From Stenotrophomonas sp. SAU14A_NAIMI4_5 (GTDB lineage: Bacteria; Pseudomonadota; Gammaproteobacteria; Xanthomonadales; Xanthomonadaceae): a stretch of 64,000 bases of DNA. The DNA lies in NCBI RefSeq assembly GCF_003086795.1, contig NZ_CP026003.1:514493-578492 (forward strand). Direction: 5' to 3'. The notes beneath the pieces are model-generated. The model made no database searches. It saw nothing but the letters and a program-made list of their open reading frames with translations, and was not told the DNA's origin. The position numbers and the translations under genes were made by a program. Positions 2,362 through 25,591 of this stretch are shown piece by piece. Numbering within the stretch: the first letter of the stretch is position 1; every line of letters begins with the position of its first letter.

Positions 2362-2370
2362 CCCGCTTTG

Positions 2371-3454
2371 GTAGCTGCCGACCGTTGGTCGGCACACTCT
2401 GTCGGCTGCGATGGACCCTGAAGGGGCGTGCCGACCAACGGTCGGCACCCACCAGAGCGGTGGGTCGGCACCCACCGGAGAGGTGGCTTGGCGTCGGCCC
2501 GGCAATGGCCTGCTGTTGGTAGGTGCCGACCGTTGGTCGGCACACTCTGTCGGCTGCGATGGACCCTGAAGGGGTGTGCCGACCAACGGTCGGCACCCAC
2601 CAGAGCGGTGGGTCAACACCCACCGGAGAGGCGGGTCGGCGTCGGCCCGGCAAAGGCCCGCAGTTGGTAGGTGCCGACCGTTGGTCGGCACAGTCTGTCA
2701 GCCGCGATGCACCCTGAAGGGGTGTGCCGACCAACGGTCGGCACCCACCAGAGCGGTGGGTCAACACCCACCGGAGAGGTGGCTTGGCGTCGGCCCGGCA
2801 ATGGCCTGCTGTTGGTAGGTGCCGACCGTTGGTCGGCACAGTCTGTCAGCTGCGATGCACCCTGAAGGGGTGTGCCGACCAACGGTCGGCACCCACCAGA
2901 GCGGTGGGTCGGCACCCACCGAAGATGTGGCTTGGCGTCGGCCCGGCAAAGGCCGCCGTTGGTAGGTGCCGACCGTTGGTCGGCACACTCTGTCGGCTGC
3001 GATGCACCCTGAAGGGGTGTGCCGACCAACGGTCGGCACCCACCAGAGCGGTGGGTCGGCACCCACCGGAGAGGCGGGTCGGCGTCGGCCCGGCAAGGGC
3101 TCGCCGTTGGTAGGTGCCGACCGTTGGTCGGCACACTCTGTCGGCTGCGATGGACCCTGAAGGAGCGTGCCGACCAACGGTCGGCACCCACCAGAGAGGT
3201 GGGTCGGCACCCATCGGAGAGGTGGCTTGGCGTCGGCCCGGCAATGGCCTGCTGTTGGTAGGTGCCGACCGTTGGTCGGCACACTCTGTCGGCTGCGATG
3301 GACCCTGAAGGAGCGTGCCGACCAACGGTCGGCACCCACCAGAGCGGTGGGTCGGCACCCATCGGAGCGATGGGTCGGCACCCATCGGAGCGATGGGTCG
3401 GCACCCACCGGACCGGTGGGTTGGCACCCACCGGACCGGTGGGTTGGCACCTAC
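2371..3454. repeat. Tandem array of about seven 148-bp units made of GTAG (SMAG/REP-type) palindromes
   Basis: The palindrome GCCGACCGTTGGTCGGC recurs at about 2377, 2525, 2673, 2821, 2968, 3116 and 3264, a steady period of 147-148 bases. Most copies are preceded by GTAG or GTAGGT. Each unit then carries an inverted partner (GTGCCGACCAACGGTCGGCA) and short GTGGGTCGGCACCCAC hairpins. The last unit runs into a nested run of about 23-base copies of GATGGGTCGGCACCCATCGG between about 3350 and 3450. Units differ by scattered substitutions. Open frames within the array on both strands are translations of the repeat and are not called as genes. The right end (CTAC at 3451-3454) supplies the stop codon of the next gene on the minus strand. 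Confidence 0.95.
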
Positions 3455-4005
3455 CGGGCGACCGGCGCCATCTTCCACAACAACGCGCGGAACGGGGCCA
3501 GCAGGCACACGCCGATGGCCAGCTTCACTGCCAGATCGCCTGCGGCCCAGCTCACCCACGGCAGCGTCGAACCGGCAAACGCGATCGACCAGAAGATGGT
3601 CGTATCCACCGTCGCGCTGCAGGTGGTGGCCACCATCGGTGCGCGCCACCAGCTGCCACGGCGCAGACGGTCGAACACGGTAATGTCCAGCAGCTGGGCC
3701 ACGATGAAGGCCGAGCACGAGGCGATCGCGATGCGCGGCGTCGCCACCCACACCGACAGCAGCACCGCCAGCAGGAAACCGATCCACGCCACGCGGCGGG
3801 CCGGGCCCGGGCCGAAGCGGCGGTTGATCAGGTTGCTCACCAGGAACGCCACCGGGTAGCTGAAGGCACCCCAGGTCAGCCAGTCGTTGATCGGGTACTG
3901 CACCAGCACGTTGGACAGCAGCACCACCGCGCCCATGGCCAGCACTGCCAGCACGAGCGCGCGCGGGGTCAGCGGGGCAAACACAGGGTCAGGACGCACG
4001 GACAT
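3451..4005 (-). CDS. yhhQ: Queuosine precursor transporter (YhhQ/QPTR, VUT family)
   Basis: A 184-residue inner-membrane protein with about six hydrophobic segments. The family takes up queuosine precursors (preQ0/preQ1 or queuine) for wobble-base modification of tRNA. Visible support is the family pattern in the middle and C-terminal half, including YPVAFLVSNLINRRFG, IASCSAFIVAQLLDITVFDRL and the polar TCSATVDTTIFWSIAFAG segment. I chose the ATG giving MSVRPDPVF; an ATG 33 bases upstream (MGDSLVL) is also possible and neither has a clear ribosome site. The TAG stop lies in the GTAG of the last unit of the neighbouring repeat array. Confidence 0.85.
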   Translation of the reverse strand: MSVRPDPVFAPLTPRALVLAVLAMGAVVLLSNVLVQYPINDWLTWGAFSYPVAFLVSNLINRRFGPGPARRVAWIGFLLAVLLSVWVATPRIAIASCSAFIVAQLLDITVFDRLRRGSWWRAPMVATTCSATVDTTIFWSIAFAGSTLPWVSWAAGDLAVKLAIGVCLLAPFRALLWKMAPVAR

Positions 4006-4081
4006 GGCGAGCCAGGGGAGGACGAGGGAATCGCCCATTATCCGCCCGGTGGCCGGCAAAGCCAAAACCGCCGGTAACCTG

Positions 4082-4143
4082 GTAGCGCCGGGCCATGCCC
4101 GGCGGTTCGCGGTAAGGGGCCGCCGGGCGTGGCCCGGCGCTAC
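4082..4143. repeat. SMAG/REP dimer with GTAG at both ends
   Basis: GTAGCGCCGGGCCATGCCCGGC is followed after a short spacer by its inverted partner ending GGCCCGGCGCTAC, so the pair can form a long hairpin. It lies between two minus-strand genes. The minus-strand GTAG at 4143-4140 contains the TAG stop codon of the upstream gene. Confidence 0.85.
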
Positions 4144-5105
4144 CCCAGCGACAGGCGCGCGTGTACCTCTGCCGCTACCCGCGCGGTTTCGCGCAGTGGC
4201 TCGATGCGGTCGTGCTGCCAGTCCAGCCAGTGCGTCTGCAGGCGGCCGCGTTCATGCAGCTGGCGCTGGAAGCGGGCCAGCCGTCCCTGCGCGGTGTCGG
4301 CCAGGGCCACCATCACCGGCAGGCGCGTGGCGCTGGCTTCAGAGAGCAGGTTTACCGAATCGGGCGATACCACCACCCGGTTGGCCCAGCCCAGCAGGCC
4401 GGCATAGGGGTTCACGCCGTCGCCGCCATCGCCCCAGATCACGTGCGGCAGGTGTGCGAACGTGGTGCGCAGTATCTCGGCCAGTGCCGGCGGCGTGCGT
4501 CGCGAGGTGGTGGCCAGCAGGCTGCCGCCTTCGCTGCGGATCTGCTCGGCCAGCGCAGTGAACACCGCCACCATCGCCGCCTCGTCCCACGGTGCCAGCG
4601 GCGTCGGGCCGCCCACCAGCAGCGCGGTGCGCGGGCCGGGCAGGGCACCGAAGTCGGCGAACGCGGCACGGCCCAGCGTCAGCCAGTCATCGTCCACCGG
4701 GTTCAGGCTGCCGATCAGCGTGAGGACGTTGCTGCCGCGCAGGGCATCGTGTTCGGGCACCACCACCAGATCCCAATGGCGGGAGGGCAGGCGCGGGTCG
4801 AGGATCTGCACCGTGCGGCTGCCACGGGCACGCAGCACGCGCAGCGCACCGGCGGCCTGGCGGCCACAGCCGATCGCCAGCGCAGGGGCCTGCGCGGCCA
4901 GTTCGGCGAAGTCGGGGCCGTAGCCGTTCACATCACCGGGCAGGCGCCGCGGCGACAGCCAGCGCCAGGGCGCACGGGGCCGCAGGACCAGCGGGCGATG
5001 GGTGCCCTGGCGCAGCGCCGAGGCCAGCGCGACCGCCTGGCGGACATTGCCGGCACGGCCGTCAGTGACCGTCCACGGCGCGCTCGATCGTTTCACCATT
5101 GGCAT
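4140..5105 (-). CDS. ELM1/GtrOC1-family protein (mitochondrial fission ELM1-like)
   Basis: A 321-residue soluble protein of the DUF1022/ELM1 family, which bacterial annotation links to putative nucleotide-sugar glycosyltransferases of the GT-B fold. Recognised from the N-terminal WTVTDGRAGNVRQAVALA segment, the central ALLVGGPTPLAPWD region, and the C-terminal sequence VVSPDSVNLLSEASATRLPV, which resembles a sugar-nucleotide binding loop. No substrate can be named. The start MPMVKRS could also be the ATG two codons later. The TAG stop is part of a GTAG repeat. The gene is divergent from the following nitroreductase gene, with 120 bases between them. Confidence 0.8.
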   Translation of the reverse strand: MPMVKRSSAPWTVTDGRAGNVRQAVALASALRQGTHRPLVLRPRAPWRWLSPRRLPGDVNGYGPDFAELAAQAPALAIGCGRQAAGALRVLRARGSRTVQILDPRLPSRHWDLVVVPEHDALRGSNVLTLIGSLNPVDDDWLTLGRAAFADFGALPGPRTALLVGGPTPLAPWDEAAMVAVFTALAEQIRSEGGSLLATTSRRTPPALAEILRTTFAHLPHVIWGDGGDGVNPYAGLLGWANRVVVSPDSVNLLSEASATRLPVMVALADTAQGRLARFQRQLHERGRLQTHWLDWQHDRIEPLRETARVAAEVHARLSLG

Positions 5106-9538: not shown

Positions 9539-12226
9539 ATGAACTGGTTGAACGAAGTGCTGAACAACGACACCAATCCTGTGGAAACCCAGGAGTGGAT
9601 CGAGTCGTTGAAGGCCGTCATTGATGTCGAGGGCCCCGAGCGCGCGCATCAGCTGCTGGAAGGCATGGTGGAACTGACCCGTCGTTCGGGTGCGTACCTG
9701 CCGTTCTCTCCCACTACCGAATACGTCAACACCATCGATCCGCAGCTGGAGGCCAAGAGCCCGGGCAACGCGGAACTGGAATGGCGCATCCGTTCGATCA
9801 TCCGTTGGAACGCGATGGCGACCGTCGTGCGTGCCAACCGCAAGCCGGGCGACCTGGGCGGCCACATCGCCTCCTTCGCCTCCGGTGCCACCCTGTACGA
9901 CGTGGGCTTCAACCACTTCTGGCGCGCCCCGAGCGACAGCCATCCGGGCGACCTGCTGTTCATCCAGGGCCACAGCGCCCCGGGCATCTACGCGCGCGCC
10001 TTCCTGGAAGGCCGCATCAATGAAGAACAGCTCGACAAGTTCCGCATGGAAGTCGACGGCGGTGGCCTGTCGTCCTACCCGCACCCGTGGCTGATGCCGG
10101 ACTTCTGGCAGACCCCCACCGTGTCAATGGGCCTGGGCCCGCTGGCCGCCATCTACCAGGCGCAGTTCATGCGCTACCTGGAAAACCGTGGCCTGATCGA
10201 GAAGTCCGACCGCAAGGTGTGGTGCTTCATCGGCGACGGCGAGAGCGACGAGCCGGAAACCCTGGGTGCCATCGCCCTGGCCGGCCGTGAAGGCCTGGAC
10301 AACCTGATCTTCGTGGTGAACTGCAACCTGCAGCGCCTGGACGGTCCGGTGCGCGGCAACGGCAAGATCATCCAGGAACTGGAAGGCGTCTTCCGTGGCG
10401 GCGGCTGGAATGTCATCAAGCTGCTGTGGGGCGGTTACTGGGATGCCCTGCTGGCCAAGGACACCAATGGCGTCCTGAAGAAGCTGATGATGGAAACCGT
10501 CGACGGCGAATACCAGAACTGCAAGGCCTTCGGCGGCGCGTATACCCGCGAGCATTTCTTCGGCAAGTACCCGGAAACCGCTGCGATGGTCGCCGGCCTG
10601 TCCGACGACGACATCTGGCGCCTGAACCGTGGTGGCCACGACCCGCACAAGGTGTACGCCGCCTACCACCAGGCCGTGAACACCAAGGGCATGCCGACCG
10701 TCATCCTGGCCAAGACCGTGAAGGGTTACGGCATGGGCAGCGCCGGTGAGGCACTGAACCCGACCCACCAGACCAAGAAGCTGGACGACGAAGCAGTGCG
10801 CCACTTCCGCGACCGCTTCAACATTCCGGTGACCGACGCGCAGCTGGCCGATGGCCAGGTGCCGTTCTACCACCCGGGCCCGGATTCGCCGGAAGTGCAG
10901 TACCTGCAGGAGCGCCGCAGCGCCCTGGGCGGTTACCTGCCGCAGCGCCGCCGCAAGGCCGACAAGAGCTTCAACGCACCGAAGCTGGAAACCTACGAGC
11001 GCCTGCTGAAGAGCAGCGGCGAGCGCAGCTATTCCACCACCATGGCCTTCGTGCAGAGCCTCAACATCACCCTGCGCGACAAGGAACTGGGCCCGCACAT
11101 CGTGCCGATCGTGGCCGACGAAGCCCGTACCTTCGGCATGGAAGGCCTGTTCCGCCAGATCGGCATCTACGCGCCGTTCGGCCAGAAGTACAAGCCGGTC
11201 GACGCCGACCAGCTGATGTTCTACCGCGAAGACCAGAGCGGCCAGGTGCTGCAGCAGGGCATCAGCGAGCCGGGCGCCATCAGCTCGTGGATGGCTGCCG
11301 GTACCAGCTACTCGGTCAGCAACGTGCCGATGCTGCCGTTCTACATCTACTACTCGATGTTCGGCTTCCAGCGCGTGGGCGACATCGCCTGGCAGGCTGC
11401 CGACATGCGTACCCGCGGCTTCCTGCTGGGTGGCACCGCCGGCCGCACCACGCTGAACGGTGAAGGCCTGCAGCACGAAGATGGCTTCAGCCACCTGGTG
11501 GCTGGCGGCATCCCCAACGTGCGCAGCTACGACCCGACCTTCGGCTTCGAAGTGACGGTGATCCTGCAGCACGGCACCAAGGCCATGATGGAAGACCAGG
11601 TAGACGAGTACTACTACCTGACCCTGATGAACGAAAACTACACCCACCCGGAAATGCCGGAAGGTGCAGCCGAAGGCATCGTGAAGGGCATGTACCTGCT
11701 GACCGACGCCGGCAAGCCGAAGAAGGGCGACCTGCGCGTGCAGCTGCTGGGTTCGGGCACCATCCTGCGTGAAGTGATTGCCGCCGCCGAGCTGCTGGAC
11801 AAGGACTTCGGCGTGACCGCCGACATCTGGTCCTGCCCGAGCTTCAACGAGCTGCGCCGCGATGGCTTTGACGCCGAGCGTGCCAACCGCTTCCACCCGG
11901 AAGGCGACCAGCGCAAGGCCTACGTGACCGAGCTGCTGGAAGGCCGCCAGGGCCCGGCGATTGCCGCCACCGACTACGTGCGTGCGTATGCGGACCAGAT
12001 CCGCGCGTTCGTGCCGATGTCGTACACCGTGCTGGGTACGGATGGCTTCGGTCGTTCGGATACCCGTGCGAACCTGCGTCGCTTCTTCGAAGTTGACCGG
12101 TACTACATCGCGCATGCCGCGATTGCGGCGCTGGCTAAGGACGGGAAGATGACTGGGAAGGACGTGGCCCGGGCGATCAAGCAGTACAAGATTGATCCGG
12201 AGAAGGCTAACCCTGTTGGGGTTTGA
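9539..12226 (+). CDS. aceE: Pyruvate dehydrogenase E1 component, homodimeric type
   Basis: An 895-residue thiamine-diphosphate enzyme that decarboxylates pyruvate and acetylates lipoyl-E2 in the pyruvate dehydrogenase complex. The TPP motif is clear (GDGESDEPETLGAIALAGRE ... NCNLQ), as are the homodimeric-type segments SHPGDLLFIQGHSAPGIYAR and GLQHEDGFSHL. Length fits the family. The start MNWLNEVLNN is preceded by GGGAG at good spacing. The partners aceF and lpdA do not follow; a terminator and then foreign-looking DNA follow instead, so aceE forms the left edge of the variable region. Confidence 0.98.
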   Translation: MNWLNEVLNNDTNPVETQEWIESLKAVIDVEGPERAHQLLEGMVELTRRSGAYLPFSPTTEYVNTIDPQLEAKSPGNAELEWRIRSIIRWNAMATVVRANRKPGDLGGHIASFASGATLYDVGFNHFWRAPSDSHPGDLLFIQGHSAPGIYARAFLEGRINEEQLDKFRMEVDGGGLSSYPHPWLMPDFWQTPTVSMGLGPLAAIYQAQFMRYLENRGLIEKSDRKVWCFIGDGESDEPETLGAIALAGREGLDNLIFVVNCNLQRLDGPVRGNGKIIQELEGVFRGGGWNVIKLLWGGYWDALLAKDTNGVLKKLMMETVDGEYQNCKAFGGAYTREHFFGKYPETAAMVAGLSDDDIWRLNRGGHDPHKVYAAYHQAVNTKGMPTVILAKTVKGYGMGSAGEALNPTHQTKKLDDEAVRHFRDRFNIPVTDAQLADGQVPFYHPGPDSPEVQYLQERRSALGGYLPQRRRKADKSFNAPKLETYERLLKSSGERSYSTTMAFVQSLNITLRDKELGPHIVPIVADEARTFGMEGLFRQIGIYAPFGQKYKPVDADQLMFYREDQSGQVLQQGISEPGAISSWMAAGTSYSVSNVPMLPFYIYYSMFGFQRVGDIAWQAADMRTRGFLLGGTAGRTTLNGEGLQHEDGFSHLVAGGIPNVRSYDPTFGFEVTVILQHGTKAMMEDQVDEYYYLTLMNENYTHPEMPEGAAEGIVKGMYLLTDAGKPKKGDLRVQLLGSGTILREVIAAAELLDKDFGVTADIWSCPSFNELRRDGFDAERANRFHPEGDQRKAYVTELLEGRQGPAIAATDYVRAYADQIRAFVPMSYTVLGTDGFGRSDTRANLRRFFEVDRYYIAHAAIAALAKDGKMTGKDVARAIKQYKIDPEKANPVGV

Positions 12227-12236
12227 TTTCTAACAG

Positions 12237-12264
12237 AGGGGCGACTTTGGTCGCCCCTTTTTTT
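12237..12264 (+). terminator. Rho-independent terminator of aceE
   Basis: AGGGGCGAC, loop TTTG, GTCGCCCCT, then a seven-base T-run, starting 11 bases after the stop. Confidence 0.92.
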
Positions 12265-12308: not shown

Positions 12309-13649
12309 ATGGCCAAGGAGTCAGTTTCGCAGCGTGGTGTGAAACTTAGGTTGGAGAATCAGCGGTGGATTCACGACGTTGAGCGACGCAGGAAGCGGCG
12401 TGTTGTCAAAGCTAAGATTAATAATCAAGAAAAAGATGCTGAAAATAAGTCTAAGCGCTATCGCTCCAAGCCATTGGGGTTGATGGCAGGGAAGAGTCAC
12501 GAAGTGCTTGTGCGTGATTCCGTAATTGCGGGTAAGGTCATAGTTCCACGATCATTCTCGGTTCACCATAATCCTAGGGACACGTTGCTCAGTATCTTCC
12601 GTATTGCGAAGTATGCGAGGCAAAATAAGGGCTCGCTTAGAGTAAATATTGATCTTAGTCGAGTTACCGAGATGGATCTCGCTGCCGATAGCCTGCTCGC
12701 GATTGTGCTAAAAGAGATAAAGAACGAGTCATTCGGCCTGCGTAAAGTAAGTATTCGAGGTAGTTTTCCTCGGCAGCAAGAGCTGCAGAGGGAGATGGAG
12801 GAAGTGGGAACCGTCAAGGTGTTGATGTCGGATCGAGGTAAGGATAATGTCGAATTTTCGTTGAAAGGAGATGTCAAAGTCTTCCGACACCGGCAGGCTA
12901 GTCTTGAGCCAACCCGTACTATTGACGCGTCTGACTCTGTTGAAGCTGTCACCGAAAAATTTTCTGATCACGTTAACAATTGCCTCAATACAATCAACAA
13001 AGAGCTCACCGCGAATGGTCGCAGGAATTTGTGCGATTACGTTGGAGAGCTTTTAACCAACGCCCAGGATCATGCTGGGATGACCGATTGGACAATTGTT
13101 GGTTATCTGGATGTAGCTACGAAACTATTTAAGGTTGTCGTTGTTAATTTCGGCAGCAGTATTGAGGAAACCTTCACGGCGCTCGAAGATGGCTACACTC
13201 GAGATCAGGTCTATGGATACGTACAACGGCATAAGGATGCTGCTTTCCGTAAATATCGAATGCGTGAAGGGGCCCTTTATACCGTTGCAGCACTGCAGGG
13301 AAAGGTGAGTAGCAAAAATTTTGATGAAAGTGGCACTAGGGGGCAAGGAACCATTGCGATGATGGAGTTCTTTCAGCGCATTAGCGATGCCTGCTCCGAT
13401 GAAGGTACGGGTGATCCTGAAATGGTCCTGGTTTCCGGTGATACGCACATTAGATTTCACCGTAAATACAAGATGAAAAAAGATGAGGCGACTGGGAGGG
13501 AGATAATCGCGTTCAACAAGGAAAATAGTACTAGTGAACTTCCTGATGGTGAACTTGTCAGAACGATGGTGGGGGCATCGTTTCCCGGGACCTTGATTTC
13601 AATCAATTTCCCGCTCAGTGGCAAATTGCAAATAAGAGAAATTGAATGA
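12309..13649 (+). CDS. STAS plus GHKL (HATPase_c) ATPase, first gene of an AT-rich three-gene operon
   Basis: A 446-residue soluble protein. A very basic N-terminus (about 1-60) is followed by a STAS-like segment (about 110-175: LRVNIDLSRVTEMDLAADSL) and a GHKL ATP-binding domain (about 215-350). In the latter the N-box reads ELLTNAQDHAG, the G1 position VVNFGSSIEETF and the G2-like loop ESGTRGQGT. No phospho-acceptor His or transmembrane segment is seen, so it is not an ordinary sensor kinase. STAS with GHKL recalls SpoIIAA/SpoIIAB partner-switching, but in one chain. Base composition is far more AT-rich than the flanks, indicating transfer. GGAG lies ahead of the ATG. The function is unknown; defence is suggested only by position beside mcrBC. 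Confidence 0.8.
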   Translation: MAKESVSQRGVKLRLENQRWIHDVERRRKRRVVKAKINNQEKDAENKSKRYRSKPLGLMAGKSHEVLVRDSVIAGKVIVPRSFSVHHNPRDTLLSIFRIAKYARQNKGSLRVNIDLSRVTEMDLAADSLLAIVLKEIKNESFGLRKVSIRGSFPRQQELQREMEEVGTVKVLMSDRGKDNVEFSLKGDVKVFRHRQASLEPTRTIDASDSVEAVTEKFSDHVNNCLNTINKELTANGRRNLCDYVGELLTNAQDHAGMTDWTIVGYLDVATKLFKVVVVNFGSSIEETFTALEDGYTRDQVYGYVQRHKDAAFRKYRMREGALYTVAALQGKVSSKNFDESGTRGQGTIAMMEFFQRISDACSDEGTGDPEMVLVSGDTHIRFHRKYKMKKDEATGREIIAFNKENSTSELPDGELVRTMVGASFPGTLISINFPLSGKLQIREIE

Positions 13650-13957
13650 TGGAAACCATTGATTTTGACAAATTAGGCGGTCCTGTTTATGCCGGAAGAT
13701 CGAAAGGAGAGCGAGCGAGAGTGCAGCTTGGTTTGGATCGAATGGACAAATCCCAGGCCCCCGTGCAGATCAAGATTCCTGAGGATACTTACTCGTTGAA
13801 TAGTTCGTTTTTCTTAGGGCTTTTTGGGCCCAGTGTTGTAAATTTCAGGTCTAGAGATGCTTTCTTGAAGAAGTACGTATTTGAAGCTCCCGCAGTTATT
13901 CTTGAGGAAATCGAGAAAGGGATCGATAGGGCGCTGGCGGAAGTTCGGCCGCTTTAA
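13646..13957 (+). CDS. Small STAS-like (DUF4325-type) protein, second gene of the operon
   Basis: A 103-residue soluble protein whose ATG overlaps the previous stop (ATGA), implying translational coupling. The pattern VQIKIPEDTYSLNSSFFLGLFGPSVVNF resembles the STAS-like DUF4325 family, which is often encoded beside GHKL ATPases. By analogy it would be the anti-anti-sigma-like partner bound or modified by the upstream ATPase; this is inference. The conserved Ser pair in NSSFF is a candidate phosphorylation site. It shares the AT-rich composition of its neighbours. Confidence 0.65.
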   Translation: MMETIDFDKLGGPVYAGRSKGERARVQLGLDRMDKSQAPVQIKIPEDTYSLNSSFFLGLFGPSVVNFRSRDAFLKKYVFEAPAVILEEIEKGIDRALAEVRPL

Positions 13958-13973
13958 TGGATGAGGGCGAAGG

Positions 13974-14510
13974 ATGGAGCAGGTAAGCATTTCCATTGGA
14001 AGTTCATCGGTAAGTATTCAGCAATGGGTTGTTTTCGGTGTGGGAGCCCTTCTCACCATTCTAAATTTGGTTATAACGGTTGTTAATTACCGAATGTCGC
14101 GTCGGCGGTCGGTTGAAGATGAGTTTTGGTTTAGGCGTGTCGTAGCGCCTGCTGTTATTGATAGGGCGCAGGAGTTTGCGCTGAAGTGGTCAACGGAGAT
14201 TGCATCTTCAGTTTCGTTTCGCGGCAACGTTAAGGGGACTCAGGCGAAGGTGACTGAGTGCAAAAGTGAATGTTCTGCCCTTATTACAAGTTTTATGTGC
14301 CTAAAGATGTATGACTCTGCCCACTACATTTCAGCTACTCGGCGTGCCGATGAGATGGTTGATTCTGTGACAGAGTGTCTTTATATAATATCTAACAAGG
14401 CATTCGATGTTAATGAGGTTGGTAAGAAAATTGAGGAGAAGCGAGAGGAGCTTCATGCGTCGCTTTTGGGCATATTCGTTGACATGAAGAAAATGCAATC
14501 GAAATTCTGA
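13974..14510 (+). CDS. One-span membrane protein with cytoplasmic helical domain, third gene of the operon
   Basis: A 178-residue protein with one clear hydrophobic segment near the N-terminus (about 18-42, VFGVGALLTILNLVITVV) followed by a basic stop-transfer stretch (NYRMSRRRS), so the remaining 135 residues should lie in the cytoplasm. That part is mainly helical, with KIEEKREELHASLLGIF as a possible coiled coil at the end. I do not recognise a family. It starts 17 bases after the STAS-like gene. In defence systems a membrane-anchored last gene is often the effector; that role is conjecture here. Confidence 0.7.
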   Translation: MEQVSISIGSSSVSIQQWVVFGVGALLTILNLVITVVNYRMSRRRSVEDEFWFRRVVAPAVIDRAQEFALKWSTEIASSVSFRGNVKGTQAKVTECKSECSALITSFMCLKMYDSAHYISATRRADEMVDSVTECLYIISNKAFDVNEVGKKIEEKREELHASLLGIFVDMKKMQSKF

Positions 14511-14676
14511 GCTGTTCTCTATTTTATAGTTTGATCTTTGGGTGAGTTTTGTTTTGTCGAAGTTCGTGCTGCGAATGGTTCCTGCTGACGCGAGATGCCG
14601 GTCGATAGCGTCAATCGGTGTCGCAATTTGAAATTTTGCCTTACGATATAGCTGACGTGACTATCGATAAGTGCAC

Positions 14677-17316
14677 ATGGGACGTATCAACACTTCGGTC
14701 GAACTGAGCGGTTTTCAAATAGGCTCCGAATACTCCCGCCAGAACGTCGCCGAGCTCAGTGGATTGCCCGTCCCGGCTGAAATTTACGGAACTCCCTGGG
14801 CGGACGGAATCTTAGAACTCGAGAATGCCGTCTTGCTGTTCGTCACCCTCGAGAAGGAGGGCGAGGCCAGCTATCTCGACCTCTTCGACGGCACCGACTT
14901 CTACTGGGAAAGCCAGAATAGGAATAGCCAGAGCTCACCGATCATCCGCCGGATCTCAGGCGGTTCGCCCACCTATCTATTCGCTCGGATGCGGGCAAAG
15001 GTCCGCGGCGCCTCCAACGCGGTCCCGTTCGTCTACTGCGGAAAGCTCGACTTCGTGGCGATGGACGGGGAGCACCCTGTTACATGCCTGTTCGATGCGG
15101 TCGACATCGGAACCGGTCATAGAGATCGCCTGACCGAAATTCTGCGGTGGCGGCCTAGCGTATCCCCAACCGAATTCTCTGCGCGCCAGGTGCGGCTGAA
15201 GGGTTGCGGAAAGACTCTGCCGCCAGCAGCTGAAAATTCTTTCGCTCCCGCTGCGCCCGCTGTTTCGAGTGGCTCGCCCACCTACGAAGTCGTGCTCACA
15301 GACGGCGCCATACGCAATGGCTACATCACGGTGGACCCCAACTGGTCAGGCTTCGATGCAGCCATGCTCGGCCGCCCGGACGCAGCTTCAGGTCGAGAGG
15401 CGACTTTCACGTTTGCAGACGGCTATCAGATCACCTCCGATCTGCGGGCCAGCGGACCGGGCTCCGCTCGAATCCGCGCAAGGGTTGCGCCTGCTTTTAG
15501 GCGTCTAGGCGTCGTAGCCGGCGACTCGCTGCTCATTGTCCAAGAGAAGAGTGGGCAGTACCGAATTGAGGCGCGAAAGGGCGGTAGAGACACGTTTGAG
15601 CTCGGCTACGCACGCCTGCGTGAGCGCTTCCTTGCACGATTCCCTGACTTCAGCGGCTTCTCCGAGGACCAGCGCCTGCTGCGGGAAACCAGCTACAAGC
15701 GGCAGTTGGTAGAGCATTACCACGCGATCATGCTCCCAGCGCTCAGTAGCGAGCAGCCAGAAGAAGTCTGGTCTGCATTGATCAGCCTGCTGAAAGCCCG
15801 CGTCGGTGCTGAGAACCCGCAACCTCAGAACGTCGTCGGTTGGCGAATCGTTGCTCAGCTGGCCGAATTACCGGAGGGCGATCGCGCGGCGCTGGGTAGC
15901 GCTGTCCTTTCGCTGCTTTCAGGACAAGACGGCGACGCTGCGCTGGATGCCTTTAATGACTCCTCATCTAAGCTAAGTCCACCGCTGCAGCCTGCTGGCC
16001 AACGCTCGCTCTCAAGTCTGTTGCTGACTCTCAAAGATCCGACGCGCTACTTCTTCATCAAGACCGGTCAGATGCGCCGTGCCTTGGGTCTGCTCGATCC
16101 GACCTTCGACTTCCGCAAAGGTGGCATGACCGGTGAGGAGTGGGAGCGCATCCGTACGCTGTCCTCTCGACTGGCGGCACGTCTATCGGAAGACGGCTGG
16201 CCGCCCGCAGACATGATCGATGTTCAGTCCTTCCTCTGGGTGGCGATCGCCTATGAGCAAGGCGATGGTGCCGAGGCTGAGGAACAAGAAGATGAAGCTG
16301 TGGAACAGGACGACGACATGCCCGTGATTCACGCTCCCTCCAATACCATCCTCTTCGGCCCGCCCGGTACCGGTAAGACCTATGGTGTAGTGGACAAGGC
16401 ACTAGAGATCCTTGATCCGGAACTCCTGGCCGCGACAACGGGGCAGGGGGCTGCCGCGCGCGCCACGCTGAAGAGTCGGTTCGACGCGCTGCACGATGAA
16501 GGGCGCATCCGCTTTGTCACCTTCCATCAGAGCTTCGCCTACGAAGACTTCGTGGAAGGACTCAAGGCTCGTGCCGGCGAAAGCGGTGCGCTCGAGTACG
16601 GCGTCGAGAACGGTGTATTCCTCGAACTCTGCATTGATGCCCAGCACAGCGACCTGCCGTACGTCCTCATCATCGACGAGATCAACCGCGGCAATATTGC
16701 CCGCATCTTCGGTGAACTCATTACGCTCATCGAGCCGAGCAAGCGCCAGGGCATGGACGAGGCGCTGTCGGTTTGCTTGCCGTACTCCAAGCAGAAGTTT
16801 GCTGTGCCAGCCAACTTGCACCTCATCGGCACGATGAACACCGCGGACCGCTCCCTTGCTGCAATGGACGTGGCGCTGAGACGGCGCTTCCGCTTCATTG
16901 AGATGCCGCCCCAGCCGGAGCTGCTCGATTGGAGTGTCGAAGGCGTTCCTGTGGGCGAACTGTTAAGCACGCTAAACAGCCGCATCGAGGTTCTGCTGGG
17001 CCGGGATCATCTGATCGGTCATGCCTACTTGATGGGCGCCAAGGATCTACCCGCGCTTGCCGATGCGTTCCGCCTCCGTATCCTGCCTCTGCTGCAGGAG
17101 TACTTCTTCGAAGACTGGCGCCGCATTGCTTGGGTCCTGAACGACGACGCTAAGCCTCACGCTGAGCGTTTTCTGCGCCAGCGCGAACTTCAGTTGAACC
17201 GACTGTTCGCGCCCGAGGTCCAGCTTGCCCCGGACACGGCCAATTGGTACATCCATGAGGCGGCTTTCGAACAGGCGGCCAGCTACAAGGGAATCCTCGT
17301 CGGTCAGGCGGACTGA
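14677..17316 (+). CDS. mcrB: McrB-like AAA+ NTPase with DUF3427-like N-terminal domain (type IV restriction)
   Basis: An 879-residue restriction subunit. The AAA+ domain (about 560-800) has Walker A FGPPGTGKT, Walker B VLIIDEINRGNIARIFGEL and the McrB signature LIGTMNTADRSLAAMD with the Arg finger region LRRRFRF. McrB hydrolyses GTP and translocates DNA for the McrC nuclease, cutting modified DNA. The N-terminus (about 1-150) resembles DUF3427 (TYLFARMRAKVRG ... PFVYCGKLDF) and a second region (about 205-310) looks like a further DNA-binding domain (GYITVDPNWSGFD), so it probably reads a different modification from E. coli McrB. Start: ATG at 14677; a GTG two codons upstream is possible. Unlike the preceding operon it is GC-rich. 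Confidence 0.9.
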   Translation: MGRINTSVELSGFQIGSEYSRQNVAELSGLPVPAEIYGTPWADGILELENAVLLFVTLEKEGEASYLDLFDGTDFYWESQNRNSQSSPIIRRISGGSPTYLFARMRAKVRGASNAVPFVYCGKLDFVAMDGEHPVTCLFDAVDIGTGHRDRLTEILRWRPSVSPTEFSARQVRLKGCGKTLPPAAENSFAPAAPAVSSGSPTYEVVLTDGAIRNGYITVDPNWSGFDAAMLGRPDAASGREATFTFADGYQITSDLRASGPGSARIRARVAPAFRRLGVVAGDSLLIVQEKSGQYRIEARKGGRDTFELGYARLRERFLARFPDFSGFSEDQRLLRETSYKRQLVEHYHAIMLPALSSEQPEEVWSALISLLKARVGAENPQPQNVVGWRIVAQLAELPEGDRAALGSAVLSLLSGQDGDAALDAFNDSSSKLSPPLQPAGQRSLSSLLLTLKDPTRYFFIKTGQMRRALGLLDPTFDFRKGGMTGEEWERIRTLSSRLAARLSEDGWPPADMIDVQSFLWVAIAYEQGDGAEAEEQEDEAVEQDDDMPVIHAPSNTILFGPPGTGKTYGVVDKALEILDPELLAATTGQGAAARATLKSRFDALHDEGRIRFVTFHQSFAYEDFVEGLKARAGESGALEYGVENGVFLELCIDAQHSDLPYVLIIDEINRGNIARIFGELITLIEPSKRQGMDEALSVCLPYSKQKFAVPANLHLIGTMNTADRSLAAMDVALRRRFRFIEMPPQPELLDWSVEGVPVGELLSTLNSRIEVLLGRDHLIGHAYLMGAKDLPALADAFRLRILPLLQEYFFEDWRRIAWVLNDDAKPHAERFLRQRELQLNRLFAPEVQLAPDTANWYIHEAAFEQAASYKGILVGQAD

Positions 17317-17319
17317 CCC

Positions 17320-18648
17320 GTGGCCGTGCTGACCGTTCGCGAGTACGCACGCATTGGCGTCTCAGAAGGTGGCGCGCGGCAGGAGGGGCTAGATGCCGCC
17401 TTCCTGCCGCAGGCGTCCTTTGACTGGCTGTGCGGCGAGTTCGAGCGCTTGCGCGCTGGCGGAGCGGCGCTCATGCAGCGCGACGGTGCACGCTGGCTTC
17501 GTTTGGATCAGTACGTGGGCGTAATGGAATGTCCCGACGGCACCACGCTGGAGGTACTGCCGAAGCACGTTGCACATGCGGACGATGCGCTCGGCGCCCG
17601 ACGGCTGCTGCGGCGCATGCTGTGCACTGTCCTGGACATCCCGCCGAGGGAAGGCAGTCCGGCCGATGTGACCCTGTTCGACACGCCGTTGAATGAATGG
17701 GTCATGGGGCGATTCATCTCCGCGCTGGATGAGTTGCTGAAGCGGGGGCTTCGCTTCGACTACACCCGTGTTCGGGAGGAACAGCTGTTTTTGCGCGGCC
17801 GGTTGGATATGTCGCGCCAGCTTCGTCAGTCGCCTACCCGCGCCCACGTATTCAACATCGAGCACGATGTGTTTAGTGAGGACCGCCCGGAGAACCGACT
17901 TCTGCGTGTCGCCTTGGATCGGGTATGCGCGCGCACGCGTAATGCAGGAACCTGGCGGTTGGCGCAGGAACTGTCCACGCGCATGGCCAGCGTCCCACGA
18001 AGCACTCAGGTTGCTAGCGACTTGCGCGCCTGGGGCAGCGACCGGCTGATGGCCCACTATCGCGAAGTTCGCCCGCTGTGTGAGCTGGTTCTGTCGGGGC
18101 AAAGCCCGCTGGCGCTGGCAGGCGATTGGCGCAGCCCCAGCATGATGTTCCCTATGGAGCGGCTGTTTGAGCGCTACGTGGGCGTTTGCCTCTCTCGCCA
18201 GTTCGCACCGGAGTGGCGGGTTGGCGGCGCGGCGTCGGAATACCTATGTCGCCATGGTGAAGCGAGCTGGTTCAATCTGATCCCAGACTTCTTGCTACGC
18301 CGGGCCGACGAACTGCGTGTCCTGGACACGAAGTGGAAAGTCCTCGATGCGACGGCTGGCGACGCGCGGCAGAAGTACGGGCTCAAGCAATCCGACTTCT
18401 ACCAGATGTTTGCCTACGGACAACGCTACCTTGGTGGGGCGGGGCAGATGGCACTGGTCTATCCGCAGCACGCTGGCTTTGCGCAGCCGTTGCCGGCGTT
18501 CGACTTCAGCCCTGAGTTGCAGCTTTGGGTGCTGCCATTCGATCTGGAACGCGGTCTTCTGGTGATGCCCGGATCGTGGCAGTCACACGAAGCACATGAG
18601 CTGTCCAGTCAGCGTTTGGGTGAAATACGATTGACCGTCGCTATTTAG
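17320..18648 (+). CDS. mcrC: McrC-family restriction endonuclease subunit
   Basis: A 442-residue partner of the preceding McrB-like protein, beginning at GTG three bases after its stop. The C-terminal half has the PD-(D/E)XK core: PDFLLRRADELRVLDTKWK, with the Asp of PDF and the DTK motif. The family domain shows LDQYVGVMECPDGTTLEVLPK near the N-terminus and DVFSEDRPENRLLRVAL in the middle. Together with McrB it should form a type IV restriction complex. Its 3' end overlaps the 3' end of the next, opposite gene by four bases. Confidence 0.9.
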   Translation: MAVLTVREYARIGVSEGGARQEGLDAAFLPQASFDWLCGEFERLRAGGAALMQRDGARWLRLDQYVGVMECPDGTTLEVLPKHVAHADDALGARRLLRRMLCTVLDIPPREGSPADVTLFDTPLNEWVMGRFISALDELLKRGLRFDYTRVREEQLFLRGRLDMSRQLRQSPTRAHVFNIEHDVFSEDRPENRLLRVALDRVCARTRNAGTWRLAQELSTRMASVPRSTQVASDLRAWGSDRLMAHYREVRPLCELVLSGQSPLALAGDWRSPSMMFPMERLFERYVGVCLSRQFAPEWRVGGAASEYLCRHGEASWFNLIPDFLLRRADELRVLDTKWKVLDATAGDARQKYGLKQSDFYQMFAYGQRYLGGAGQMALVYPQHAGFAQPLPAFDFSPELQLWVLPFDLERGLLVMPGSWQSHEAHELSSQRLGEIRLTVAI

Positions 18649-21310: not shown

Positions 21311-21381
21311 GGCTGCCGTACGCGGGTTGCCTTTTAGCCTGTTTGATATTCGTCCAAGAATACAAAGAAGGGTTTTTAACT

Positions 21382-22023
21382 ATGCCGCAATCAAGCGACG
21401 ATCTGCCCAGGCCAGGGGAGTTCTTTCAGTTGGAGCCTGACGCGCGACGTGGAGGCAAGGGGCATGGAGTCGTCTTCGAGAACGTCACGAACCTGCTGAC
21501 ACCGCCACGAGTAATACTGCGCCCCCGCTCGGGCGGATTCCCCGTGCTTAGGGAAACACCCAGGCTGGTCTATCGTCCTGAGCGAGGCTCTCCGCCCCAG
21601 GATCTAGACGGCGGCATGAGTGGCTACTGGTTGGTCTCCGACCGTCTGCGACGCGTAATGGAGAAGGTGGACGCAGGTGCGTTTTCGTTCGCGGACGTGA
21701 CCTACGAGGCCTCAGATGGAAGCCAGTCCGGAGGATACTCCCTCTGCGATGTGACGCGCACTCTGGATGCCTTGAATGAAGAAACATCAGTACTCCACAT
21801 CGGGCTAAGTGACGAATTCGAAGCGGGGAAGTTCTATGACTTGACCGGAGAGGTTCGCTTGGCTTTCCGCCCCGAAGCTCTGCAGGGCGCGCATGTTTTC
21901 CGTCTGGCTTTTCACGGCGGAGTGTTCTGCGACAGAGCGTTCCGGGCCGCCGTTGAGGAAGCAGGGATCTTTTCGCCCGGCCAGTCAAACGGTCTCTGGT
22001 TCTACGATGTCGTGAATCGTTGA
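21382..22023 (+). CDS. Imm11-like (DUF1629) immunity protein, copy A
   Basis: A 213-residue cytoplasmic protein (no signal peptide), similar to the 22325-22957 protein through its length. Shared features are the N-terminal PG.F..L..D.RRGG.G.GV, the central GYWLVSD.L.R.....D, and the C-terminal FYDLTGEVRLAF ... VFCDRAFRAA. The layout fits the Imm11 family of polymorphic-toxin immunity proteins. Start: ATG at 21382 behind AAGAAGGG; a TTG 39 bases upstream is less likely. It lies between the degenerate AHH-like gene and a truncated toxin start, so its original toxin may be the truncated one. Confidence 0.7.
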   Translation: MPQSSDDLPRPGEFFQLEPDARRGGKGHGVVFENVTNLLTPPRVILRPRSGGFPVLRETPRLVYRPERGSPPQDLDGGMSGYWLVSDRLRRVMEKVDAGAFSFADVTYEASDGSQSGGYSLCDVTRTLDALNEETSVLHIGLSDEFEAGKFYDLTGEVRLAFRPEALQGAHVFRLAFHGGVFCDRAFRAAVEEAGIFSPGQSNGLWFYDVVNR

Positions 22024-22052
22024 AGGTCCATGCCAAGGAAGGAGAATGATCC

Positions 22053-22253
22053 ATGGCGGGCTACAGTACGATCTTTCAGGACCATCACAGCATCGAGCAG
22101 CAGACGCTGAAGAACAGCCAGATTCTGTCCTACCTTCTAGTGCCCGTTTCGTTCATGCTTACTCTGGCCTGGGTCCATTGTCTGTGTGATGAGTTGCGCA
22201 TTAGTGCGGCGCTGCCGCGGTGTAAAATCATGTCGTCGAGAATTGCATATTAG
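22053..22253 (+). pseudogene. Truncated start of an AHH-type toxin gene
   Basis: The first 30 or so residues (MAGYSTIFQDHHSIEQQTLK...) match the first residues of the effector at 22988 (MAAGQVILQSHHVLEQNLFR), including the His-His pair at positions 11-12. After about residue 30 the frame continues with unrelated sequence and stops at 66 codons. A purine-rich ribosome site (AAGGAG) precedes the ATG. The remainder of the nuclease and any secretion signal are gone, so it is read as a deletion remnant. Confidence 0.7.
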
Positions 22254-22324
22254 AAGTAAGTGTGACTTGGCGATTACTTGTTACCAGTAATGTCGTGAAA
22301 CATGTTCTTGTATAGAGTTCGAAT

Positions 22325-22957
22325 ATGAAAAATGAAAGCGGACCAAAATCGGGACAGTTCTACATCCTTCGCGCTGACATGCGCGGTGGTGGGAGGGGGC
22401 AGGGCGTTTCGGTGGAGAATGAAGACGACATTCCCTTCCCCGCCAGCCTGAGCGTTCCTCCTGAGGTTGGAGGGCTTGCGAATTTGAAAGTGAAACCACG
22501 CCTTCGGCATGAACGCCGGCTGGGGGACATGCCAAAGGATCTGCAGAGCGGCATCACCGACTATTGGCTCGTGTCAGAGCCGCTGAAGCGACTGCTTGCG
22601 TCAGTGGATCCTGAAGGTTTTGCATTCGTCGAGTGCGAGTTTTCTCTGGAGGATGGCACCACGGCTGCGCCCCACTACTTCTGCGAAGTAACGAGGGTGC
22701 TTGATGCAGTTGATCTAGCGTCGTCCAAGGTCAAGGTACTGACCGAGGGCTATCGGAATGGCAAGTACTACAGTGTCGCGGGAGGCGCCCGATTGGCGTT
22801 TGACTTGAAAGTGGTAGGGGCGGCGCATGTGTTCGTAACGCCCTACACCGCCGATGTCTTCTGCGACAGGACTCTGCGAGATGCGCTTCTGGAGGGCGGC
22901 TTTGGAATAGAGCCCAAGACCCGCGGCGTGCGGCTGATCGACGCTTCGGATATCTGA
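22325..22957 (+). CDS. Imm11-like (DUF1629) immunity protein, copy B, probable partner of the XVIPCD effector
   Basis: A 210-residue cytoplasmic protein homologous to the 21382 gene (DYWLVSEPLKRLLASVDPEG, GKYYSVAGGARLAFDL, DVFCDRTLRDALLEGG, ending RLIDASDI). The effector begins about 30 bases downstream on the same strand, which is the usual immunity-toxin order for Xanthomonadales type IV effectors. Most such immunity proteins are lipoproteins against periplasmic toxins; a cytosolic one fits a nuclease toxin. No strong ribosome site is visible before the ATG. Confidence 0.75.
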   Translation: MKNESGPKSGQFYILRADMRGGGRGQGVSVENEDDIPFPASLSVPPEVGGLANLKVKPRLRHERRLGDMPKDLQSGITDYWLVSEPLKRLLASVDPEGFAFVECEFSLEDGTTAAPHYFCEVTRVLDAVDLASSKVKVLTEGYRNGKYYSVAGGARLAFDLKVVGAAHVFVTPYTADVFCDRTLRDALLEGGFGIEPKTRGVRLIDASDI

Positions 22958-22987
22958 TAGTGCCCGTGTATGCCGGAAGGGAATCTT

Positions 22988-25591
22988 ATGGCTGCTGGTC
23001 AAGTAATACTGCAAAGCCACCATGTACTGGAGCAGAACCTCTTTAGAGATCATCCGCTGCTGAAACGGCTGGATGAGCTCAAGCTCATTGAGAAAGATTC
23101 TTCGGCGAATCGCATCTACTTGCCTGTAGAGGGGGAGCTTGCCGAGGATATTGAGGCGTCTCCCCACCGTGGGCGAACAAGAAGTTCGTACACGGACGGT
23201 GTTACCAGCTTTCTCGATGACCTGCGCAGGACTGACGATGGTATGGCCGCAATGAGAAAAGAGCCTGCTGCTGCAGCTCGCATTGCGGCACGGGTGACTG
23301 AGTTCCAAGAGACATTGAAGCTTGGTCTAATCAATGGAGATGCTCTTGCCACCACGCCAGATGCGTTGACCAAGGATCAAGCCAACGCTCGAAACGTAAG
23401 GTTCTACTCCGACCCGCAAACGTATCGTGCGGAACATGCAGTGCAGCTCAGGATGCTGCGATCAATGGGGCCAGTGGAGTCAGAGTGGGCAGCAGTCACT
23501 CACTCAGACGCCAGGATCGGGCGGATCATTGACGAAATCCACAGTAGCCCCAGGAATCTGGTTGCCGGCCCGGGTGAGCGGGACGCGTTTGCACGCGAAG
23601 TGGCAGGCAGAATGGAGATGCGTCTGGCGATATCGCAGGCGGAACAGGCGGGGCGCCTAACATTGTCGGATGCGACCAACGCGCGCGTCCGGCACGCCTT
23701 AGTGGATGATCTGCCATCCATCGGGCCCGCGCGGGGAGGAATCTACGATCTGACTGCGCCATCTCCAACGCAGTACAAGCCCGTCTCGCAGCGCGGCTTC
23801 GTAACCATGGACCTCCTCATCGGCGAAGCCTCCGCCAGCCAACTGGTCCGTTCCGGCGGTCTGCTCGCCTCCGGCGCGGATGCCATCCTCACCACGCGCC
23901 GCATATCCGAGCACCTGCAGCAGGGCAACGGCACGGCCGCCCAGTCCGAGTTCAACCACGCGGTTGCACGCAGTGGCGGTGGCTGGCTCGGAGGCATGGC
24001 AACCGCCTCCGTGATCGGCACGTCCAGCTTCGTGCCGGCGGCGGTGGTCGCGGCCGATGCGTTGTTCATGAGCAAGGCATTCGACAAGGGCGCCGACCTG
24101 CTCGACAACCGCGCGGTGTATCACCAGAAAGACAATGCCGGCGTGCAGTGGAAATTTGACGGCAACAACTGGCAGCGCCAGGCCAGGATGGAGGACTCGG
24201 CTGCCAGCCCTGGGGTTGCCACCGAGCACAGTGTGGGCGCGAGCTATGAAAAGGCGCGCGAACTGGGTGCCAAGGCAAGCGTGAGCGCGGTTGAGCTGGC
24301 GCTGGGCAAGGCCTCGCCGCCGCAGAACCCCTTCAGCATTCCTGCCCGAGCCGACGAGGGAAGCGGCTTCGGCAACCCTGACTGGCACCGCGATGCCCAG
24401 ACCGAACAATGGACCCGCGTAATCAAGACGGGTGTGGCCGGTGCCAATGATCGTGGCATCTATGAAGCCCAGACGGCGACACCCGAACGCGCTGCTGAGC
24501 TGAACCAGCAGGCCGTGCAGCGCATCGAGGACAACATCGCCCATGGCAAGGCGGCGATCGCAGCAAGTTACCTGGAGAATCGCGCTGCCACGCGTGCAAG
24601 CGATTTTGTGCCCGTGGTGCCCGAAGCTGTAGAGGCGGCGCGCGCCCGGCCGGACGCCATTCTTGGTTCGGACAACGTGCTCTACCAGCGCGACGAAGCG
24701 GGAACATGGTCCCACGAGGGGCGCGTAGCACAGGGCAACATGGCGCTGGAGCTGGAGGCAACGCGTACGATCCAGCAGCCGTCGATTGATGTGCTCGACC
24801 AGACCATTGCTGCGCTGTCGGCGCGCCCGGCGCTCACCAATGCAGAAATGAACCAGAACGAGCTGCGCCACACCTACGCGGCTGCGGGCATCACGCCTTC
24901 GTCGCAATGGATGGAGGCCATTGAGCTGGCCACGGCGCGCACGCGTGCCCAGCACAGCATCACCGGCGCGACAATGCAGCAGCTTGCGCCGCCGACCGAG
25001 GGCAATGCGGGTGAGTCGCGCGCTATTACCCACTACCAGACGGGTGCCGATGGTGTCGCCCGCCCGGTGGCGACGACAACGACCGAGGAGCTGCGGGCGG
25101 CGTGGCAAGAGGTGCGTGCACTCGCTGCGCAGCCCACCCAGCAGCCTGGTCCTCAGCAGCCTGATCCTCTGCAGCCTGATCCTCTGCAGCCAGGGGGGGC
25201 CGACTACGCACTCCACCAACAGATACGCGCGGGCGTTGCTGCGCTGGACGCTCAGCATGGGCGGGCGCCGGATGCCGTGAGCGACAGAATGACCGCCAGC
25301 CTGCTGGTGCTGGCGAAGCAAAACGACCTGTCCCGCGTGGACCAGGTGGCGTTGAGCGCCGCCACCGGCCACCAGCCGGCCGGGCATACGGTGTTTCTGG
25401 TGAAGGGCGATGTGAGCAGTCCTCCGTTCACCTTGGCCACCATGACGACCGACCGCGCTGTGACGACGCCGGTGGAGGTGTCGATGCAGCGCTACCAGCA
25501 GATGAACCAGGAGGCACAGCAGCAGAGTGCTGCGCGGCAAGTGGAACAGCAGGCGCAGGATGGACGGGTGCAGGGGGTGGGCAGGGAATAG
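22988..25591 (+). CDS. Type IV secretion effector (X-Tfe): N-terminal AHH-type nuclease, C-terminal XVIPCD
   Basis: An 867-residue predicted interbacterial toxin. N-terminal domain (about 1-115) carries an AHH/HNH-like arrangement: SHH at 10-12, ANRIYLP at about 40-46, PHRGRTRSSYTD from 59. The middle is long, with a hydrophobic Gly/Ala-rich stretch (about 325-360) and repeated acid-rich helices. A Pro/Gln linker with QPDPLQPDPLQP leads to the XVIPCD (about 735-850): YALHQQIRAGVAALDAQHGR, SRVDQVALSA, GHTVFLVKGD, TTPVEVSMQRYQQ, then a Gln-rich tail. The XVIPCD binds VirD4 for export into rival cells. I chose ATG 22988 because GGAAGGG lies seven bases before it. No secretion-machine genes are in the window. 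Confidence 0.88.
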   Translation: MAAGQVILQSHHVLEQNLFRDHPLLKRLDELKLIEKDSSANRIYLPVEGELAEDIEASPHRGRTRSSYTDGVTSFLDDLRRTDDGMAAMRKEPAAAARIAARVTEFQETLKLGLINGDALATTPDALTKDQANARNVRFYSDPQTYRAEHAVQLRMLRSMGPVESEWAAVTHSDARIGRIIDEIHSSPRNLVAGPGERDAFAREVAGRMEMRLAISQAEQAGRLTLSDATNARVRHALVDDLPSIGPARGGIYDLTAPSPTQYKPVSQRGFVTMDLLIGEASASQLVRSGGLLASGADAILTTRRISEHLQQGNGTAAQSEFNHAVARSGGGWLGGMATASVIGTSSFVPAAVVAADALFMSKAFDKGADLLDNRAVYHQKDNAGVQWKFDGNNWQRQARMEDSAASPGVATEHSVGASYEKARELGAKASVSAVELALGKASPPQNPFSIPARADEGSGFGNPDWHRDAQTEQWTRVIKTGVAGANDRGIYEAQTATPERAAELNQQAVQRIEDNIAHGKAAIAASYLENRAATRASDFVPVVPEAVEAARARPDAILGSDNVLYQRDEAGTWSHEGRVAQGNMALELEATRTIQQPSIDVLDQTIAALSARPALTNAEMNQNELRHTYAAAGITPSSQWMEAIELATARTRAQHSITGATMQQLAPPTEGNAGESRAITHYQTGADGVARPVATTTTEELRAAWQEVRALAAQPTQQPGPQQPDPLQPDPLQPGGADYALHQQIRAGVAALDAQHGRAPDAVSDRMTASLLVLAKQNDLSRVDQVALSAATGHQPAGHTVFLVKGDVSSPPFTLATMTTDRAVTTPVEVSMQRYQQMNQEAQQQSAARQVEQQAQDGRVQGVGRE

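Follow-up and report, generated by a model that had tools for sequence, protein, structure and literature searches.

A three-gene Stenotrophomonas operon as a candidate phospho-switch defence cassette with a membrane protein

Results

A 64,000-nucleotide stretch of the Stenotrophomonas sp. SAU14A_NAIMI4_5 genome (contig NZ_CP026003.1, positions 514,493 to 578,492; hereafter the window) carries an operon of three plus-strand open reading frames (ORFs), genes 1–3, which span 12309–14510 and encode proteins of 446, 103 and 178 aa. We hold it somewhat probable that this operon is a mobile defence cassette in which a phospho-switch governs a membrane-acting protein. The reading draws on the gene set and its linkage, a predicted kinase fold in the first protein, a weak STAS match for the second, the invariance of catalytic and acceptor residues, the hydrophobic segment of the third protein and a defence-hotspot location; from these we infer kinase activity, a complex between the products of genes 2 and 3, a trigger, membrane damage and phage protection.

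Linkage and spread of the three genes

Matches of genes 1 and 2 to two PHROGs of unknown function gave the first sign of phage carriage. A viral-contig scan then yielded 14 loci and a genome scan yielded 13; two further viral scans gave 10 (gene 2 query) and 33 (gene 1 query), with many contigs repeated across scans; among INPHARED phages, neither the window gene 1 nor the E. coli-type gene 1 found a match. Plasmid tblastn returned seven records, and queries with window genes 2 and 3 gave none; all five records inspected, including one from the bacteroidete Spirosoma, hold genes 1–3 in order. The family spans at least two phyla.

After removal of a locus with only a weak partial gene-1 match (L022, E about 1e-4, without genes 2 and 3), the collection stood at 79 loci, comprising the window, 5 from plasmids, 57 viral ones, 13 from the genome scan, 2 from a further genome search and 1 from E. 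coli. Profiles made for this analysis detected genes 1 and 2 together in 79 of 79 and gene 3 in 66; the loci represent 50 distinct gene-1/gene-2 pairs, 39 of which include gene 3. In one set of 43 loci, a gene-3 match was missing from 12. One of these was a contig end, and the other 11 have an ORF of 179–253 aa with a hydrophobic segment directly after gene 2, exceeding our hydrophobicity threshold (Kyte-Doolittle mean 1.6) in 9 cases. Genes 1 and 2 overlap in 35 of the 50 operons and lie within a gap of at most 24 nt in all 50, when the first possible start codon is taken as the ORF start. Across the 39 complete operons, the three proteins correlate in their pairwise distances (r 0.88, 0.77 and 0.74, reached in 0 of 1000 permutations), as expected if the genes are inherited as a unit. 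That the three genes travel together in other genomes, on which the original prediction depended, was therefore borne out.

Occurrence is sporadic. Matches occurred in 1 of 297 genomes of the family (the source genome alone), in 3 of 398 at order level (counting the source genome and one weak match) and in 2 of 369 at class level, the source genome among them. On a very small, mobilizable Providencia plasmid (L006, 6778 bp) the operon is carried as cargo, so that a complete unit seems to fit in about 2 kb. Plasmid carriers as small as 6.8 kb would also suit an addiction module in the toxin-antitoxin style, which would maintain plasmids and prophages and protect against phage only secondarily or not at all; we consider this improbable, as addiction should need no dedicated kinase and as defence hotspots house both the copy in the window and the P2 copies described below.

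Gene 1: STAS domain and GHKL kinase fold

Gene 1 (12309–13649, plus strand) was predicted to join a STAS domain to a SpoIIAB-type GHKL kinase fold, with a basic N-terminal helix (a long helix at residues 4–50 of the model). In structure comparison, the nearest kinase folds to the model were SpoIIAB and RsbW. VIA-align ranges place the STAS domain at about residues 67–173 (12507–12827, plus strand; aligned to RsbS, TM1442 and SulP STAS domains) and the kinase domain at about residues 188–437 (12870–13619, plus strand; aligned to SpoIIAB). None of the named residues of the N-box E247-x3-N251-x3-H255 (13047–13073, plus strand) varies among the 50 distinct operons, and the E and N of this box have a catalytic role in GHKL serine kinases of the SpoIIAB/RsbW type. 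By prediction, gene 1 has a GHKL serine kinase fold with an E-x3-N N-box, and the domain pair and the N-box starting at E247 that had been proposed from the sequence are supported by this model. Among Pfam models none reached its cut-off, STAS_2 coming in at E 0.066, and no Pfam helix-turn-helix (HTH) model was matched at E<=1.

SpoIIAB and RsbW act in stress-type partner switches, and their rank as nearest folds would fit a general stress switch with no phage role. No sigma factor is present among the three operon genes, however, and the operon is mobile and sporadic, which together make this alternative very unlikely; a sigma factor encoded elsewhere may nevertheless be a target.

Gene 2: a small STAS-like protein

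Gene 2 (13646–13957, plus strand) encodes a minimal STAS-like protein, the presumed phospho-acceptor and inhibitor; the predicted fold has one STAS-like domain over the entire 103 aa. The top Foldseek rank was a macro domain at E 0.8, which was set aside in favour of a second structure comparison in which STAS domains took the first three ranks, with low Z. The STAS-like assignment, which depends on the model, is accordingly put forward as a weak one. The presumed phosphorylation site is Ser54 (codon 13805–13807, plus strand), at the start of helix 2 (residues 53–67); it is Ser in 50 of 50 operons, and the adjacent Ser53 is conserved in 40 of 50. A resemblance to DUF4325 had also been claimed for this protein and proved weak. 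The window protein has no Pfam match at E<=1, DUF4325 included, and DUF4325 (PF14213) has no Pfam match across the whole source genome; one homologue (L028) matched it under cut-off (E 0.15, 12.3 bits vs a cut-off of 23). When a gene-2 profile was run on 20 DUF4325-bearing loci, the best four matches were DUF4325 proteins (E 0.011–0.78), and profile comparison with five DUF4325 proteins gave a probability of 14% (E 0.0019).

Gene 3: a membrane protein

Gene 3 (13974–14510, plus strand) encodes the presumed effector. A single membrane span had been predicted, and one hydrophobic segment was indeed found, its best 19 residues (12–30; 14007–14063, plus strand) having a Kyte-Doolittle mean of 1.62, barely above the threshold. 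Since an Arg-rich stretch comes next after this segment, the C-terminal part is probably cytoplasmic. Directly 3' of the segment lies a W52-x-R54-x-V56-x-x-P59 motif (14127–14150, plus strand), conserved at W in 39 of 39 members, R in 38, V in 32 and P in 36. No Pfam family, PIN included, was matched at E<=1. In a Kluyvera copy (L033:11482–12067) gene 3 is broken into two ORFs; intact copies are known elsewhere, and the split one was excluded from the gene-3 alignment.

Gene 3 is the fastest-changing of the three genes. Two hydrophobic segments are present in 11 of 24 aligned members, and some homologues have, by eye, a lipoprotein-like start. Such a variable N-terminal segment could belong to a sensor or anchor that reports an envelope event such as phage injection, with the kinase or the phosphorylated STAS protein of the retained pair hitting some other target. 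We judge this unlikely: the operon has no other output gene, the membrane gene is the most variable member, and it is the effector that occupies the third place in VapKSC, a published system taken up below.

Operon layout and composition

Genes 1 and 2 share a 4-nt ATGA overlap, which makes their translational coupling likely. Genes 2 and 3 are separated by 16 nt with a stretch resembling a Shine-Dalgarno sequence (judged by eye), and may be coupled too; of the coupling originally proposed throughout, the first half is thus the likely one. The GC content is 0.465 vs 0.660 in the remainder of the window, and equally low values occur in only 2 of 618 sliding 2202-bp stretches, both overlapping the operon. 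A set of three ORFs of foreign composition was in this way confirmed, as was its position between aceE and mcrB. The left border is the aceE intrinsic terminator, a stem-loop at 12238–12257 on the plus strand (GGGGCGAC-TTTG-GTCGCCCC, then a T run), and in six relatives homology to the window ends at 12226–12264, near this terminator. On the 3' side, mcrB starts at 14671 and opens a McrB/McrC-like pair (14671–18648), in which McrC matches Pfam McrBC (E 5.6e-95) and McrB is called from Pfam AAA_5 together with an NCBIfam McrB match under cut-off. No sigma70-like promoter was seen on the plus strand of the operon.

Prophage and chromosomal settings

Four P2-like prophages (L007, L013, L015, L017) carry the operon in the interval from the portal gene to gpA, which is described as an antiviral hotspot in the available part of PMC9122126. 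An L008-type operon is at least 80% covered in 31 of 5426 complete E. coli genomes, with any match in 33; it is annotated as three hypothetical proteins, and in the single region inspected it sits between the portal and replication endonuclease genes. The tables of PMC9122126 may already include this E. coli cassette as an untested entry. The presence of copies on P2-like and other viral contigs would suit superinfection exclusion or lysogenic conversion, where gene 3 stops the DNA entry of related phages without cell death under kinase–STAS control. That is a rather unlikely explanation, given that copies also reside on plasmids and that the window copy is chromosomal, beside McrBC. Of the 76 ORFs flanking 12 chromosomal homologues, a few have a PADLOC match at E<=1e-15 (PifA, PDC-S35, MTase_II, mads).

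The aceE 3' flank

The DNA 3' of aceE was read in 20 same-genus genomes (loci L069–L072 and L074–L089; window 12265–34230). Most have a low-GC insert after aceE, with G937 (0.636) as the exception. The inserts mostly differ among genomes; G940 and G267 have the same insert, Mza genes are common to G941 and G565, and a methylase is common to G071 and G944. The scan covered 0 (G267, judged by identity) to 4 ORFs per genome in aceE flanks alone, with no control locus, and a gene was counted as defence-type if it matched PADLOC or a defence-type Pfam model at E<=1e-20 or was at least 66% identical to one that did. Defence-type content was found in 15 of 20 genomes, 13 by PADLOC or Pfam and 2 by identity: HNH, McrBC (two genomes, one via 87–91% identity), Mza, NsnA, HEC-01A, RT_UG5-nitrilase, MTase_II (two genomes, one via 66% identity), Dazbog plus Mza, PDC-M62A, PDC-M01A/Septu-like, RmrA, DndC and AriA. 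Matches were weak in G938 (4.6e-11) and G936 (7e-9), and none was found among the scanned ORFs of G946, G947 and G937; an unscanned gene of G946 is 49% identical to the HNH gene. The aceE 3' flank is likely a defence hotspot in the genus. In its available part, PMC11680222, on defence islands of S. maltophilia, does not mention pyruvate dehydrogenase.

Several other genes of these flanks were recorded. A 705–706 aa protein comes first after aceE, beside McrBC, in two species (L070:794–2911 and L071:795–2915, 95% identical); it is weakly PDC-M36A-like and a candidate defence gene, and a scan of the L070 copy gave no Pfam match at E<=0.001. At the hotspot position of the window operon, L069 has a 1026 aa HD-CE plus GHKL ATPase (HATPase_c_3; 821–4371) with a 165 aa neighbour. 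Two low-GC genes without a PADLOC match at E<=1e-5 are further candidates, one of 793 aa (L079:6519–8900) and one of 312 aa with a 342 aa neighbour (L084:6228–8163). In the window itself, 21343–25591 holds a pair of Imm11 immunity genes and, after them, a gene for an 873 aa protein bearing an X-Tfe XVIPCD domain, which together look like a type IV secretion system interbacterial effector with its immunity genes, and a 1559 aa RHS-repeat protein (29157–33836, minus strand) lies in the same variable region.

Discussion

The preferred reading, a membrane-acting phospho-switch cassette, has published precedent. In CapKS and VapKSC, a conserved Ser of the STAS protein is phosphorylated by a STAS-GHKL kinase, upon which CapS lets go of DNA and VapS of a PIN toxin (PMC13373217, EMBO J 2026, available part). 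Because our operon agrees with these systems in kinase fold, invariant Ser and gene order, we propose that the gene 2 protein at rest would be bound to the cytoplasmic part of gene 3 and keep it inactive. Infection would switch on the gene 1 kinase, the trigger perhaps being single-stranded DNA by analogy with CapK and VapK; active gene 1 would phosphorylate Ser54 of gene 2, which would then release gene 3, and freed gene 3 would damage or depolarise the inner membrane so that the infected cell halts before phage production. A switch in which STAS phosphorylation frees the membrane protein had been proposed originally. The SpoIIAB fold and the invariant Ser54 lend it indirect support, and its logic is not new, as VapKSC pairs kinase and STAS protein with a PIN toxin (PMC13373217, available part).

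The layout may extend beyond this family. DUF4325 was found in 15 of 114 class genomes, and four loci (L049, L053, L054, L055) pair a DUF4325 protein with a small neighbour of membrane-bound appearance (judged by eye), a layout resembling that of the window operon; in three (L049, L054, L055) alignment also shows a GHKL-like gene, for which the only Pfam support is an HATPase match under cut-off in L055. An acceptor-like GSSFL motif is present in L049, L053 and L054, and L055 has GPSWA; L049 and L054 are mutually related. Unlike the operons collected here, they have no significant family similarity to the window operon: a gene-1 profile matched L054 at E 1e-4, but over the basic N-terminal part, where composition is highly biased. 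Profile comparison of gene 1 with three DUF4325-linked genes gave 78%. The DUF4325 operons suggest a kinase–STAS–membrane layout broader than the window family and, though not clearly of that family, are possibly parallel ones.

We give even chances to the idea that the GHKL-kinase/STAS switch serves immunity as a general chassis whose outputs can be exchanged, with a repressor in CapKS, a PIN RNase in VapKSC and membrane effectors in the window family and perhaps in two to three further DUF4325 operon kinds (L049/L054, L055, L053). If so, a sporulation-type partner switch arms bacterial membrane killers against phage, and the window family is the first membrane-acting branch described, unseen by the models used from Pfam, PADLOC and NCBIfam. 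Ser54 would be a testable acceptor residue alongside the catalytic residues, defence catalogues would gain a family in E. coli P2-like prophages now annotated as hypothetical proteins, and the likely hotspot 3' of aceE would be a source of more candidate systems.

The expectation that no named system has the whole gene set held in the libraries and literature searched. For genes 1–3 no Pfam or NCBIfam 20.0 model reached cut-off, and PADLOC-DB 2.0.0 (2023) gave 0 families at E<=1 for each protein. PDB sequence and profile searches gave chance-looking matches only, and the single BFVD match at E<=0.001 was the unnamed J7KH07 (1.9e-5). In a literature search with thin coverage of subscription papers, preprints and supplementary tables, PMC13373217 was the sole work with kinase–STAS logic, and its available part describes no membrane output; that of PMC9519451 has no STAS or DUF4325. 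WonAB (an ABC ATPase plus nuclease) and the GHKL-Shedu protein VcSduA (GHKL fused to a nuclease; PMC12137116, available part) were set aside.

Like SpoIIAB/SpoIIAA and RsbW/RsbV, the operon has a GHKL serine kinase fold (by prediction) with an E-x3-N N-box, but its kinase bears its own STAS domain and it adds a membrane protein. With CapK and CapS it shares a predicted STAS-GHKL kinase and a presumed STAS substrate; CapK, however, has an N-terminal HTH, where the gene 1 model has its N-terminal helix, and CapS is a transcriptional repressor with STAS fused to a winged helix, for which gene 2 is too short. VapKSC is alike in gene order (kinase, STAS protein, third protein), in placing a STAS-GHKL kinase first (a predicted fold in the window), in the invariant Ser and in occurrence near defence genes, a likeness drawn from the published description and from fold. 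Its third gene encodes a VapC/PIN-domain RNase, whereas that of the window operon encodes a membrane protein. VapKSC is also defined by activation through single-stranded DNA and by phage protection, traits that the window operon may have too. The operon is therefore neither VapKSC, having no PIN gene, nor CapKS, having neither HTH nor winged helix; by analogy, it may well work like both.
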